Positions 1,593 through 63,704 of a DNA stretch of 63,704 bases are shown in pieces. Source of the stretch: Kofleriaceae bacterium (GTDB taxonomy: Bacteria > Myxococcota_A > Polyangia > Haliangiales > Haliangiaceae); NCBI GenBank assembly GCA_018058095.1, contig JAGPCO010000029.1, forward strand, positions 1 to 63,704. The letters are read 5' to 3'. The position numbers were made by a program, and so were the translations under genes. Below the pieces are notes generated by a model. The model saw only the letters and a list, made by a program, of their open reading frames with translations. It was not told the origin of the DNA and did not search any database. The number at the start of each line of letters is the position of its first letter. Position 1 is the first letter of the stretch.

Positions 1593-3444
1593 CAACGCAT
1601 CGCGTGCGATCGGGCTGGTCGCGCGCACCGCCCCCGTGCACTTCGCGTTCGCCGTGGTCCGGCTGCGCCAGCCCGCCGATCGACCGGCCCTGCTGGCGCT
1701 CGGCCACGCCCTGGCCAGCGTGGCCGGGGACGCCCTGCCGGCCTGGCTGGCCACCATCCCGGCCGAGCTGCCGGCGGCGGTGCGCTGGGTCGTGGTGCCG
1801 TGGCAGCCGGCGCTGGGGCCGGCCCTGGCCGCGCAGCGCGAGGCCGTGCTGGCCGCGCAGGACCGGCACGGCATCGACCGCGCCTGGTTCCACCAGTCCA
1901 CCACCCGGCTGCGCGCCGACGTCGACGACCTGCCCGCCGACGCCGCCGGGGGCGACCCCGACGACGACGATCGGCGCTGGACCGCGGGGCCGCCGCCGCG
2001 CCGCCCGGCCGCGCCATTGCCGGTCGATGGCCTGGCCGCCATCGACGAGCGCGCGGCCGGCGCCGACCTCGGCATCGCCCTCAAGCTGGCCGCGCCGCCC
2101 GAGCCCGGGCAGGACAGCGTGCTGCACGCCTTCCTGTCGCTGTGGCTGGCGCCGTACGAGGGCGCCGTCGGCCAGGCCGGCGTCGTCGTCGACGAGGCGC
2201 ACGGCGCGGTGCAGCTGTGGGCGAGCGGCCTGACCGGCGCGATCGACACCCTGCACCTGGTCGAGCACCTGTTCGCGGTGGTCGGTGCGCTGCACGAGGT
2301 CGTGCCGCTGGTGCACGGTCGGTTCGGCGCGCCCTCGATCGAGGCGCGGCGCGAGGCAGCGCCGTTCGTGTTCGCCGGCAACCCGCTGCTGGCGACGTGG
2401 CTGGAGGAGGGCGGGCGCGGGGTCGACGCGGCGCTGGCCCAGCCCGGGCCGTGGTCGGCGCGCGAGCAGGCCCACATGCTGCGCGAGCTGGCCATCAAGG
2501 TCACGACCCCGGTGGCCACCTTGCCCGGGCTCGACGAGGAGTTCGAGGCGCTGGTGGCCGACACCGAGGAGCCGGCGCCGGTCGCGCCCCCCGCCGCGGC
2601 GCCGCCGCGCCGGCGCGCACCGGCGGTGCTGGCGGCCGAGCTGCTGGCCGAACGCGCCGCCGCCGACCTGCTGCACCGGCGCGGCCTCGACGTGTTGCGG
2701 CCGCTCCTGGCCCAGCCCGACCCGGGCGAGGTCCGGCGGGCGCGGGTGGTGCGCATCGTCGGCGCCGCCGGTGATCCGGCCGCCGTGCCCGACCTGGTCG
2801 CGGTGCTGGAGGCGTGCGCCAACCCCGACGGCCTCACCCCGTCGGGCCGGCCCGAGCTGGTGGCGGCGGTGGTCGACGCCCTGGCCACGCTGGCCCACCC
2901 GATGGCCATCACCGCGCTGGCCGACCTGGTGGTCGGCTCCGGCGCCGCGCTCGACCCGGTCCGGGCCCCGGCCCTGGCCGCGCTCGCCGCCTGCCTGCTG
3001 GCACCTGGCGGGCGCCGGCCGATCTCCGACAAGGTCGTCACCGCCGGCCTGGCCCTGACCCGCAGCAGCGACGACCTCGCCGCCGCCAGCGCGATCTGGG
3101 CGATGGCTCGGCTGGCCTCGACCCAGGAGCCGACCCGGCTCGGCCGCGTGCGCGCCGCGCTCGAGGCGACGACGGCGAGCGCGCCGGCGCCGCGCCTGGC
3201 CCGGCAGGCCGGGCTGCGCTGGCTGGGGGCGTCGGTGGCCGGCTACGCCGACGAGCTGAGCGCGCTGGTGCGGGCCCACCTCGAGGCCGGCCAGCACCAG
3301 GCCGCCGCGGTGCTGGCCGCGCTGGCCGAGCCCTGGCCCGGGGAGCTGGCGGCGCCGACGCTGGCGGCGCTGTCCGAGGCGCCGCCGCTGGCGCTGCGCG
3401 TGCTGGCGCGCCGGGTCCGGACCGGCCGCGGGGGGCGCCGGTGA
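1585..3444 (+). CDS. HEAT-repeat-like protein of unknown function
   Basis: A 619-residue protein starting at the ATG that overlaps the upstream stop codon (ATGACTGA). There is no signal peptide or clear membrane segment, so it is probably cytoplasmic. Residues from about 350 to the end are Ala/Leu-rich paired helices with motifs such as [20 protein letters not shown], as expected for HEAT or PBS-lyase-type HEAT repeats that act as protein-binding scaffolds. The N-terminal 340 residues match no family I know. Coupling to the Pro-Glu-rich gene suggests one complex. Function unassigned. Confidence 0.6.
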
Positions 3445-3481
3445 TCCGGCCGCGCGCGCCCGGCGCGGCGAGGCCCGCGCG

Positions 3482-5056
3482 ATGAGCGGCGCCACCGCCT
3501 GGTCCGAGCTCGAGGTCACCATCGAGCTCGGCCTCGACGAGCCCGACGACGCCAGCGCCATCCGCGCCCGCGTCGGCGCGCTGCTCGGCCAGCCCGCCGC
3601 CAGCCTGCCGCCGCTCGAGGTCAAGAAGCGCTCGATCGACGCCCGGCGCGGCCGGGTCCGCTTCCACTTGCTCGTCGGCGCCGCCGATCCGTCGCCGCCG
3701 CCGCTGGCCGATCCGCCGCTGCGCCCGGTCGCCGGCCGCCCGGTGATCATCGTCGGCGCCGGCCCGGCCGGGCTGTTCTGCGCCTACCAGCTGGCTCGCG
3801 CTGGCGTGCCGGCCATCGTCCTCGATCGCGGCAAGCCGGTGCAGGCGCGCCGGCGCGACCTCAAGGGCCTGACCCAGCACGGTCAGGTCGACCCCGACAG
3901 CAACTACTGCTTCGGCGAGGGCGGGGCTGGCACCTACTCCGACGGCAAGCTGTACACGCGCGCGCACAAGCGCGGCGACATCCGCGACGTGCTCGAGATC
4001 CTCGTCGCCCACGGCGCGCCGGCCGAGATCCTGGTCGACGCCCGCCCGCACATCGGCTCCAACCGCCTGCCCAAGGTCATCACCGGCCTGCGCGAGCACC
4101 TCGAGCAGGTCGGCAGCCAGGTCCGTTTCGGCGCCCGCGTCACCGGCCTGCGTGTCGACGGCGGGCGCGTCCACGGCGTGCGCCTGGCCGCCGGCGAGGA
4201 CCTCGACGCGTCCGAGGTCGTGCTGGCGACCGGCCACTCGGCGCGCGACGTGTACACGCTGGCGGTGGCCGCCGGCGTCGTCGCCCTGCCCAAGGAGTTC
4301 GCGCTCGGCGTGCGGGTCGAGCACCCGCAGGCCATGGTCGACCGCGCCCAGTACGGCGGCGCCGGCGCGCCGCGCCACCCGCGCCTGCCGGCGGCGGCGT
4401 ACCGGCTGGCCCACACGCCGGCGCCCGGTCGCGGCGTGTTCTCGTTCTGCATGTGCCCGGGCGGCTGGATCGTGCCGGCCGCGACCGAGGCCGACGGCGT
4501 CGTCGTCAACGGCATGAGCCTGTCGCGGCGCGACTCGCCGTTCGCCAACTCCGGCCTGGTGCTCAGCGTCGGCCTGGGCGATCTCGACCTGGCGCGGGAT
4601 CCGTTCGCCGGCATCACCCTGCAGCGCCGGCTCGAGCAGGCCGCGGCCGTCGCCGGCGGCGGCCACCTGCGCGCGCCGGCGACGCGGGTCGCCGACTTCC
4701 TGGCCGGGCGCGGCTCGACCACCACGCCGCCCTCCAGCTACGAGCCGGGCCTGACCGCCGTCGACCTGGCCGAGGTCCTGGGCGCCTCCGGCCTGCCGCT
4801 GGCCCAGCGCCTGCGCGACGCCCTGCGCGTCTTCGCCGGCCAGCTGCGCGGCTTCGACGCCGCCGACGGCGTCCTGGTCGGCGTCGAGTCGCGCACCTCG
4901 AGCCCGCTGCGCCTGCCGCGCGATCCGGCCCTGCTCACCGCCCACGGTGTGGCCGGCCTGTACCCGACCGGCGAGGGCGCCGGTTACGCCGGCGGCATCG
5001 TCAGCGCCGCCCTCGACGGCATCCGCGTCGCCCGCGCCATCCTCGCCGCGCGGTAG
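3482..5056 (+). CDS. FAD-dependent oxidoreductase (COG2509-like)
   Basis: A 524-residue flavoprotein. A short N-terminal domain (about 1-85) precedes a Rossmann dinucleotide-binding motif GAGPAG at residues 92-97 and the aspartate-ended second strand (IVLDRGK). Also visible are NYCFGEGGAGTYSDGKLYTR, a conserved block of the COG2509 uncharacterised FAD-dependent dehydrogenases, and a C-terminal FAD block around YPTGEGAGYAGGI. Length and order fit that family; the substrate is unknown. It lies 37 bases after the HEAT-like gene and may share its transcript. The following intergenic stretch holds a short inverted repeat (GTCCGG CCCG CCGGAC, 5134-5149) but no T-run. Confidence 0.85.
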   Translation: MSGATAWSELEVTIELGLDEPDDASAIRARVGALLGQPAASLPPLEVKKRSIDARRGRVRFHLLVGAADPSPPPLADPPLRPVAGRPVIIVGAGPAGLFCAYQLARAGVPAIVLDRGKPVQARRRDLKGLTQHGQVDPDSNYCFGEGGAGTYSDGKLYTRAHKRGDIRDVLEILVAHGAPAEILVDARPHIGSNRLPKVITGLREHLEQVGSQVRFGARVTGLRVDGGRVHGVRLAAGEDLDASEVVLATGHSARDVYTLAVAAGVVALPKEFALGVRVEHPQAMVDRAQYGGAGAPRHPRLPAAAYRLAHTPAPGRGVFSFCMCPGGWIVPAATEADGVVVNGMSLSRRDSPFANSGLVLSVGLGDLDLARDPFAGITLQRRLEQAAAVAGGGHLRAPATRVADFLAGRGSTTTPPSSYEPGLTAVDLAEVLGASGLPLAQRLRDALRVFAGQLRGFDAADGVLVGVESRTSSPLRLPRDPALLTAHGVAGLYPTGEGAGYAGGIVSAALDGIRVARAILAAR

Positions 5057-59073: not shown

Positions 59074-59090
59074 GTTGCCTGAATGGCAAC
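59074..59090. promoter_or_regulatory. Short inverted repeat upstream of the barrel gene
   Basis: GTTGCC and GGCAAC flank TGAAT, 77 bases before ATG 59167. Possible operator; no clear promoter boxes accompany it. Confidence 0.25.
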
Positions 59091-59166
59091 CACGCGATCA
59101 TGCTTCGTCGTAACAAACGGACCAGTAGGGCCGTCCACGGTCTTTCCTACCAAGAGGGAGTCTCAG

Positions 59167-60105
59167 ATGAAGAACGTCACCAGCATGCTCGCCGCGGCAC
59201 TCGTTTCGACACTCGCGATCGGTTCGGCCTTCGCTCAGGATGAGGGCGCTGACCCCTGCGGCGGCGGTGAAGCCAACCCGTGCGGCGGCGGCGAAGGCGG
59301 CGGCGAAGGCGGCGGCGAGGCCACCGGCGGCGGCGAGGCCACCGGCGGCGGCGAGGCCACCGGCGGCGGCGAGGCCATGGGCGGCGACACGGCTGCGGCC
59401 GCCGGCGGCGGCTACCCGATGGCGGTGATCGACCGCCCGCTCAACATCCCCAAGGGCATGGTCGAGATCTCGCCCGATGTGAACATCACCATTCCCGACG
59501 AGGGCGACACCGCCTTCGGCATCACCCTCGGCGCCCGCTACGGCGTGGCCCCGAAGATCGAGGCCCTGCTGAGCTACGGCCTGAGCCTCTCGCCGTCGAG
59601 CGACGGCAAGGGCCCGCTGACCATCGGCGCCGGCCTCTCGGTCCTCGATAACGGCAAGCTCGCCGTCGAGGCCAAGGCCGCGTTCCAGTACGACGTCCTG
59701 CTCGAGTCGGCCGCCATCCTGGCCGGCGCCGACGTCCGCTACAAGATCAGCGACAAGCTGTGGGTCGGCACCCCGGTCAACCGCCCCGGCCTCGGCATCT
59801 TCGTCAAGGGCATCAGCCTCGGCCCGCTGGGCGAGATCAAGCCGATGTTCTTCAACATCCCGCTCGGCGTCGGCTTCCAGGCCACCCCGCAGATCCACGC
59901 CCAGCTCAACACCCAGCTCATCAACATCGCGATCAACGACGACGCGGGTGAGACCGGCTTCTTCGGCGCCGACTACATCCCGCTCGACCTGACGGCGCTG
60001 TACTCGCTCAGCTCGAGCCTCGACGTCACCGCGGGCGTCAACCTCGGCGACCTGAAGAACTTTGGCGGCTTCGGCATCGACCTCGGCGTCAACTACCGCA
60101 TGTGA
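59167..60105 (+). CDS. Outer-membrane beta-barrel-like protein with Gly-Glu repeat
   Basis: 312 residues from ATG at 59167, with AGAGGGAG upstream. A classical signal peptide (MLAAALVSTLAIGSAFAQ) is followed by a Gly/Glu/Ala repeat (about 30-75) and then amphipathic beta strands to the end (EISPDVNITI, AFGITLGARYGVAPKIEALL, GADYIPLDLTALYSLSSSLD), finishing in GVNYRM. The terminal residue is Met, not Phe or Tyr. Codon use is like a highly expressed gene with strong ribosome-binding site. Probably a porin-like outer-membrane protein. Confidence 0.75.
   Translation: MKNVTSMLAAALVSTLAIGSAFAQDEGADPCGGGEANPCGGGEGGGEGGGEATGGGEATGGGEATGGGEAMGGDTAAAAGGGYPMAVIDRPLNIPKGMVEISPDVNITIPDEGDTAFGITLGARYGVAPKIEALLSYGLSLSPSSDGKGPLTIGAGLSVLDNGKLAVEAKAAFQYDVLLESAAILAGADVRYKISDKLWVGTPVNRPGLGIFVKGISLGPLGEIKPMFFNIPLGVGFQATPQIHAQLNTQLINIAINDDAGETGFFGADYIPLDLTALYSLSSSLDVTAGVNLGDLKNFGGFGIDLGVNYRM
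59314..59378 (+). repeat. 18-base in-frame tandem repeat
   Basis: About 3.5 copies of GGCGAGGCCACCGGCGGC, encoding Gly-Glu-Ala-Thr-Gly-Gly. The multiple of three keeps the frame when copies change. Confidence 0.75.
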
Positions 60106-63118: not shown

Positions 63119-63193
63119 TCCGAAGTAGCTCAGTGGTAGAGCAGGCGGCTGTTAACCGCCTGGTCGTAGGTTCGAGTCCTACCTTCGGAGCCA
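63119..63193 (+). tRNA. tRNA-Asn (anticodon GTT)
   Basis: Acceptor stem TCCGAAG pairs perfectly with CTTCGGA; anticodon stem GGCGG/CCGCC encloses the loop CTGTTAA with anticodon GTT; the T-arm contains GTTCGAGTC; the discriminator is G and the CCA end is encoded (63191-63193). The D-arm begins AGCTCAGTGGTAGAGC. All elements are canonical. Confidence 0.97.
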
Positions 63194-63234
63194 TTTTTCT
63201 CTCGTCGCCAACCAACGGCGAGGGTCGGTAAACA

Positions 63235-63266
63235 GAAGCCCCCAAGGAGCGATCCGAGGGGGCTTC
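63235..63266 (+). terminator. Terminator-like hairpin after the tRNA
   Basis: GAAGCCCCC (63235-63243) and GGGGGCTTC (63258-63266) form a perfect 9-bp stem with a 14-base loop, followed by GCCGTTTCTCC. It lies 41 bases after the tRNA. Confidence 0.65.
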
Positions 63267-63317
63267 GCCGTTTCTCCCCAGAAGTCCGAGCGTTTCGCGC
63301 GCTGCGCGTGCTGCTGC

Positions 63318-63348
63318 GGCGCTCTCGCGGCTGCTCGCAGAGAGCGCC
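63318..63348 (+). other. Perfect 9-bp inverted repeat in gene-free region
   Basis: GGCGCTCTC (63318-63326) and GAGAGCGCC (63340-63348), with GCG/CGC able to extend the stem in the interior. Not followed by a T-run. Confidence 0.6.
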
Positions 63349-63372
63349 GAGCGAGCGCGATGAGCGCCGCGT

Positions 63373-63416
63373 GGGACAGCTCTCCCGCTCTCTCTCCTGT
63401 CCCGTGGGGAGAGAGA
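63373..63416 (+). other. Two overlapping, mutually exclusive stems
   Basis: GGGACAG (63373-63379) can pair with CTGTCCC (63397-63403), or TCTCTCTCC (63389-63397) can pair with GGAGAGAGA (63408-63416). Both pairings are perfect, and they share base 63397 and interleave, so an RNA could fold only one way at a time. Confidence 0.5.
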
Positions 63417-63458
63417 AGCCGAGAGGCGTTTAACTGCGTACCCGGCGATCAACAGTCG

Positions 63459-63518
63459 GCCCCGCTGATCAACAGCTTCGGCGTCCGCGATCGGGCCGAG
63501 CCTGTTGATCATCGGGGC
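63459..63518. other. Long interrupted palindrome around TGATCAACAG
   Basis: GCCCCGCTGATCAACAG (63459-63475) pairs with CTGTTGATCATCGGGGC (63502-63518) at 16 of 17 positions. A further direct copy GATCAACAG lies at 63447-63455. It could be a regulator site, a repetitive palindromic element or a stable RNA hairpin. Confidence 0.6.
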
Positions 63519-63704
63519 GACGGCTCGCGACGCGCGACGAACGGTGCCCGCCTTGGTGCGTGGAGAACTGGTCGCGCGAGGTTCGTGGGCGTACTCGCGG
63601 GCGTCGGCGGGCCTATCAACCTACGTTCACCGCGCTCGGCGGCGTGGGTATGCGCGATGACATCGGCAGCGGTCGCAGGTGCTCACTAATTTCTCCTCTC
63701 CGGC

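Follow-up and report, generated by a model that had tools for sequence, protein, structure and literature searches.

A conserved non-coding region behind tRNA-Asn as the probable left end of a genomic island family in Myxococcota

Results

Features of the locus

The window analyzed here is the whole 63,704-nucleotide stretch of contig JAGPCO010000029.1 from a Kofleriaceae bacterium, and it forms the end of contig G000:C193. Near its right edge lies a tRNA-Asn(GTT) gene on the + strand (63119–63193; ARAGORN; 72.9 bits with the Rfam tRNA model), the anchor gene of this study, whose last seven bases, GGAGCCA (63187–63193), coincide with the recombination boundary described below. The conserved non-coding region that starts there is called the block (63187–63610). 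Directly 3' of the tRNA, hairpin 1 (63201–63222, + strand) appears by eye to be kept despite sequence change in divergent copies. It is followed by the terminator-like hairpin 2 with a short T run (63235–63274, + strand; arms 63235–63248/63253–63266) and by a 9-bp perfect stem around an inner hairpin (63316–63370, + strand; arms 63316–63324/63362–63370). The most conserved module (63357–63440, + strand) consists of helix S1 (63373–63379/63397–63403) crossing helix S2 (63388–63394/63409–63415; repeat arms 63388–63397/63406–63415), both on the + strand, and then GTTTAAC. Inspection for inverted repeats also revealed a lone copy of the CCCGGCGATCAACAG motif (63441–63455, + strand) and a 24-nt inverted repeat (63459–63518, + strand; arms 63459–63482/63495–63518, 88% complementary) that carries TGATCAACAG in both arms, with a third GATCAACAG copy beside it at 63447–63455. 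The contig stops 94 bp past the shared end (~63610), and these last bases (63611–63704), for which no alignment to the copies examined was obtained, are the presumed start of the cargo. The cargo and right end of the window's own copy would lie beyond the contig end. Elsewhere in the window, positions 59083–60105 encode a predicted protein of 340 aa, in which a signal-like start is followed by a series of GGGEATGGGEATG repeats.

The initial annotation had noted four strong inverted repeats behind tRNA-Asn, and all of them are present and above chance. The minimum free energy of the stretch was −179.8 kcal/mol, as compared with −144.8 ± 5.8 kcal/mol in shuffles (z −6.02; none of 100 shuffles was as low). 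The best inverted-repeat score was 15 (shuffle mean 8.3; matched by 1 of 500 shuffles), and the sum of the four best was 43 (shuffle mean 24.3; matched by 0 of 500). The description of the region as structured and gene-free was likewise borne out, with conservation peaking on hairpin 2 and on the crossing stems. Two of the stems had been called mutually exclusive; a nested fold can indeed hold only one of them, but they share no bases, cross each other, and could coexist as an H-type pseudoknot. The proposed feature end at 63518 was too short, given that similarity to relatives spans 63186/63187 to ~63610. Furthermore, a genome-wide search found TGATCAACAG exactly 11 times in 7.57 Mb, including the two sites described here, indicating that there is no genome-wide array; the other nine sites are single and have flanks that look coding by eye.

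The T run after hairpin 2 comprises three T in the window copy and in 19 of 26 copies overall, and four or five T in 7 of 26. An automatic terminator scan called hairpin 2 on the − strand only. No sigma-70-like promoter was found in a scan of the stretch, and Rfam at gathering score gave only tRNA matches, the best sub-threshold matches reaching 11–21 bits.

Conservation is concentrated in hairpin 2 and the S1/S2 module

The block was 86–93% identical to other Myxococcota copies (over ~430 bp in nine copies in other genomes), and its first 225 bp were 94–97% identical. In the fetched relatives similarity stopped at ~63610, and nothing was shared just upstream of the tRNA. Among 12 main-type copies, mean pairwise identity was 98–100% over 63187–63206 and 63227–63266, and 97–100% over 63367–63446, which covers the S1/S2 module. 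It was 92% in the hairpin 1 stretch (63207–63226), 78% over 63307–63326, which holds the poorly conserved 5' arm of the 9-bp stem, 85–92% in the outer parts of the 24-nt repeat, 73% in its loop and inner arm (63487–63506), and 65–75% beyond 63547. Disruption of the stems in close relatives, which the initial annotation named as refuting evidence, applies only to part of the 24-nt repeat and to the 9-bp stem; hairpin 2, S1 and S2 are mostly kept.

We also compared the block start with the accompanying cargo. In G025 and G042a, which have cargo in common, the first 225 bp were 97% identical and the whole 9-kb match 79.5%; in G036 and G039b, the corresponding values were 94% for the block start and 88.4% for the whole match. 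On the other hand, in G035b compared with G041a or G046a, the cargo was conserved equally to, or above, the block start. Conservation of the block start could come in part from recombination between islands rather than from selection. Judging from the alignments, constraint on hairpin 2 and the S1/S2 module is well supported, whereas action as RNA is not, and the strongly conserved parts of the block probably do something.

Left and right ends reassort at GGAGCCA

The left boundary was located in 33 copies, 17 of which lie directly behind tRNA-Asn (G047c being counted from its spacing), one (G035b) is separated from it by 128 bp, and 15 are not preceded by a tRNA; G134:C47 is included in the 33 though it does not carry GGAGCCA. 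Ten copies whose left boundary is cut off or absent fall outside this count (G027a, G134:C99, G036:C23:71331, L067, L071, G053, G083, G097, G189 and G208). No other tRNA type was found in front of the block at these loci. The 16 copies not directly behind tRNA begin at GGAGCC, except for G035c (CGAGCC) and G134. Comparison of junctions placed the point of exchange precisely: G027b and G036c have 97.5% of the 120 bp upstream in common and only 57.1% of the block, whereas G027b and G046a have 93.6% of the block in common and only 53.6% of the 108 bp upstream. One right end is thus joined to unlike left ends, and vice versa, exactly at GGAGCCA, indicating that recombination takes place there. The part of the tRNA 3' end shared at the other junctions was 6–8 bp at seven junctions and 5 bp at G035c, G035a and G035b being left out of this count.

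In G039:C6 and G035:C36, two and three copies in the same orientation, spaced by 34–37 kb, lie behind one tRNA-Asn. Specifically, the two blocks in G039:C6 are at 73226, where the copy is divergent, and at 108140, and the blocks in G035:C36 are at 117052, 82892 and 45793. The first block of G035 starts with a second copy of the last 20 tRNA-Asn bases, running up to GGAGCC. Between tRNA-Asn and this 20-bp copy of the tRNA 3' end lies an insert of ~108 bp that contains a terminator-like stem of its own (L110:17052–17257, equal to G035:C36:117052–117257), which resembles a mini-element or an island remnant.

The block has spread among Myxococcota

In G025, G037 and G042a, the block was 95.6–96.8% identical to that of the window, whereas tRNA-Asn was 69.3–90.7% identical (the low G037 value being partly due to a 76-nt tRNA compared over a fixed 75-nt cut) and the 300 bp upstream 28–46%, a comparison that speaks for horizontal spread. 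Eleven other tRNA-linked copies were more divergent (ten at 48–73%, and one too short to measure), suggesting that this mobile family is also old. Among 30 genomes of the same family, three long matches at 91–93% were found beyond the window's genome, all in another genus (one in G025 and two in G027); the block was missing from most genomes of the same genus, and the best same-genus match, 75% in G009, covered query bases 1–130 only. A pattern scan across genome contigs identified 21 stretches, of which 20 are labelled as Myxococcota groups or delta-proteobacteria and one as a Planctomycetia MAG. All 19 genomes checked, which had been chosen for a known or suspected copy, held block matches.

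Model R1, built on the S1/S2 module, found 20 sites in 15 of 282 genomes of the phylum. These 15 include G025 and genomes that, judging from matching contig numbers and positions, had been used to build R1, and nine are new, four of which, at E 5.7e-7 to 1.7e-6, may be chance. Three of the ten R1 sites in the nine new genomes lie behind tRNA-Asn. Note that most of the genomes are draft MAGs, and common contig ends (G009a and G046a) may be assembly effects. A phage collection gave no match to the block, and two exact patterns were also absent from viral contigs. Known plasmid sequence was rejected as a source, the matches listed (20 of 557 plasmid records) being centred on the tRNA part.

Cargo genes and a candidate recombinase

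The genes behind the block differ between genomes and include methyltransferase and metal ATPase genes, sensor kinase and RND genes (G025), a TetR regulator gene (G009a, where the block is truncated) and a GmrSD-like gene (G035a). An RND/metal-ATPase cluster with a methyltransferase gene pointing at the block was found in seven copies, with 89–99% protein identity between genomes. At L066 (CADEGN010000156.1), positions 2681–4735, a methyltransferase gene is present on both sides of the junction in opposite orientation, placing two metal islands head to head. The G035 cargo comprises HsdR/HsdM type I restriction-modification genes and a subtilase gene; a further G035 cargo protein that looked Argonaute-like by eye was set aside, given that 643 residues had no Pfam match. 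In addition to Cmr-type CRISPR proteins and a helicase, the G039 cargo encodes a serine recombinase located beside DUF2924. A protein of 98–99 aa, with no Pfam or PHROG match, is highly conserved between islands (G035:C36 51622–51918, 78082–78378 and 106896–107195; also G025, G036, G037 and G042), and its gene contains or shortly precedes a contig break in three draft genomes. When 10 proteins of one island were searched with respect to a prophage origin, one matched amidase/endolysin families, one a glutamylcyclotransferase and one was DUF2924-like (two unknown-function families), and seven had no match.

The G039 recombinase (PF00239, PF07508 and PF13408) adjoins DUF2924. In G039, G036 and G046, a recombinase gene lies on the block's contig, inward of the block and reading back towards it. 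Relatives of the G039 large serine recombinase were detected in 12 of 24 block-bearing genomes (E 1e-30), with only a piece in G035, and the window's own genome had no candidate large serine recombinase at this threshold. The large serine recombinase with its DUF2924 partner is the best candidate for the island enzyme, as yet unproven. A tyrosine integrase was rejected as the island's own enzyme; such proteins occur in all six genomes searched, but among eight block contigs only on G036:C23. On that contig (L119, G036:C23:38404–40849), three adjacent tyrosine recombinase matches stand next to a DUF2924/serine recombinase module, an arrangement that we take to resemble a recombinase-in-trio element. 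A conserved module in which genes for a serine recombinase, an HTH-like protein and DUF2924 stand together with others was also seen at L195 and L210–L213, including contigs, fetched in part, where no block was found.

tRNA-Asn loci without the block

The ATP-grasp gene of the window is also located 5' of tRNA-Asn in 3 of 16 block-free loci (G004, G005 and G006, all of the same genus), and the sequence downstream differs. Behind tRNA-Asn, Pfam detected phage-integrase domains in G004 and G015, with a weak match in G006, and a serine recombinase in G022; an integrase read by eye in G029 was discarded, as the piece searched had no Pfam match. The same small gene follows the block-free tRNA-Asn in G005 and G011 but was not found in G000, and part of it lies 18 kb away in G013, as expected if islands enter there. 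A search for the empty site of the G035 array showed that the distal neighbour gene is not beside tRNA-Asn in the two relatives having that gene, and the analysis yielded no empty site for any block-bearing island. Other tRNA-Asn loci of the family (L135, L137, L139 and L145) carry shorter look-alikes of the form GGGGAGAGA...GGTTAAC, of which L135 has only GGTTAACAG; these are possibly very divergent members of the block family.

Covariation in the crossing helices

Covariation had been proposed in the initial annotation as the check on an RNA structure, and modest covariation was seen in one crossing helix only. With G-U counted, S1 pairs formed in 157 of 182 cells and S2 pairs in 171 of 182 (26 copies). 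In S1, two pairs changed on both sides, in five cells; the cell count was matched by 0 of 500 shuffles and the pair count by 120 of 500. When S1 was slid by −3, the covariation score was similar, but far fewer pairs were formed (60.6% vs. 96.2%). No both-sided changes were found in S2, because this helix is near-invariant and hardly varies. The structure that RNAalifold itself chose, which prefers the S2 hairpin, had no both-sided change, and the consensus fold of A3 recovered hairpin 1 only in part. A pair count for hairpin 2 on a MAFFT alignment showed no covariation either, and a paired one-base shortening in hairpin 2 that had been read by eye is not supported by this count. A strand test on G-U versus A-C changes favoured neither strand.

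Discussion

The region very probably forms the tRNA-proximal, left end in a family of genomic islands anchored at tRNA-Asn in Myxococcota, because similarity begins at the tRNA edge, ends are exchanged at GGAGCCA, and the cargo differs between copies. As far as genome comparison can tell, the family stacks in tandem, and its left end looks functional. Site-specific recombination would insert an island at the tRNA-Asn 3' end, the island bringing its own GGAGCCA, so that the tRNA stays whole, followed by the ~420-bp non-coding end. Repeated use of the site would then generate arrays of tRNA, left end, cargo, right end, GGAGCC and the next left end. Hairpins 1 and 2 may terminate the transcript of tRNA-Asn and keep the cargo insulated. 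For the S1/S2 module a role in cis is probable, and together with the TGATCAACAG repeat it may act on recombination or its control, either as RNA or as folded or protein-bound DNA.

Several other explanations were weighed against this reading. That the block is merely the native tRNA-Asn trailer of the lineage, with no mobile element involved, would fit its position directly behind the tRNA and its terminator-like hairpins; however, the block is not behind tRNA-Asn in 11 of the 12 other genomes of the genus whose downstream bases were inspected (the exception being G009), is more similar between genera than the tRNA is, and also occurs away from tRNA, making this idea hardly credible. The initial annotation had hinted at an attenuator, or a riboswitch, for one gene beyond the window. 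The crossing alternative stems and terminator-like hairpins would suit such an element, but we consider it very improbable, because the genes next to the block differ in kind from genome to genome; moreover, in the seven copies where a methyltransferase gene adjoins the block, this gene is oriented towards the block rather than away. A protein-binding array, the alternative named in the initial annotation, is a candidate reading. Attachment-site arms, i.e., DNA sites for the island recombinase or helper proteins, would be another role for the TGATCAACAG repeats and stems. The left boundary is a recombination point, and inward of it the repeats are present in both orientations, with their outer parts 85–92% conserved. 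The nearest repeat is, however, ~250 bp from the junction, which is far for known arm sites, the 5' arm varies among copies, and no partner protein was identified; we consider this reading less likely than not.

The block could also represent a new family of structured non-coding RNA, read through from tRNA-Asn or from its own promoter, with the island as a mere vehicle. The fold z of −6.0, the conservation maxima at hairpin 2 and S1/S2, the five both-sided S1 cells equalled in 0 of 500 shuffles, and the + strand runs of four or five T behind hairpin 2 in 7 of 26 copies favour such an RNA. Yet S2 is near-invariant and without covariation, only two S1 pairs vary on both sides (equalled in 120 of 500 shuffles) and the −3 slide scores alike, the RNAalifold structure and the hairpin 2 pair count contain no both-sided change, and G-U versus A-C changes favour no strand. 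In addition, the 9-bp stem is poorly kept, and neither a sigma-70-like promoter nor an Rfam family at gathering score was found, so that we regard this explanation as rather doubtful. A more elaborate scheme is unlikely in our estimation: the left end would be a new structured RNA, a crossing-helix or pseudoknot module behind a tRNA trailer, driven by the tRNA-Asn promoter and steering island excision and insertion, and the many members lacking a recombinase would be served in trans at their common ends.

Like SCC elements with CcrAB, the islands described here are site-specific cassettes with modular cargo, and SCC elements are moved by large serine recombinases, the candidate enzymes here. 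The SCC target is rlmH, a protein gene, and we know of no structured non-coding end of such a kind in SCC. Hairpin 2 resembles an intrinsic terminator in that T residues come after a GC-rich stem on the + strand, but it differs in having only three T in the window copy and no call on the + strand. Of the known systems that we found, the tandem ssrA islands of Dehalococcoides come closest (PMC3146451). As reported there, they also stack in tandem behind an RNA gene, are bounded by a repeat of its 3' end, and carry unlike cargo, and a serine-recombinase integration module is present in 16 of 31 islands and lacking in 15. Compared with those islands as described there, the target here is tRNA-Asn in Myxococcota rather than ssrA, the repeat is mostly 6–8 bp rather than 20 bp, the recombinase is far from the left end, and the common part is a ~420-bp structured non-coding end (PMC3146451). 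As in tRNA-anchored islands generally (Islander, PMC4383910), the target gene here would be restored, and the short tRNA 3'-end repeats at the junctions may correspond to the displaced fragment that marks the far end of such islands. Islands of that kind are usually made by tyrosine integrases, a family found here on one of eight block contigs (G036:C23) in the six genomes searched. Within the open-licence literature, no earlier description of these tRNA-Asn islands was found by title or abstract start, and no counterpart of a conserved, structured non-coding island end was found.

In some pairs of islands the non-coding parts are better kept than the accompanying protein genes, which makes the function of the island end directly testable. 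R1, or the boundary together with hairpin 2, may serve as a recognisable mark for tRNA-Asn islands of Myxococcota with metal-resistance and anti-phage cargo, and the shared end would let such islands be found even where they carry no recombinase and where assemblies break at them.
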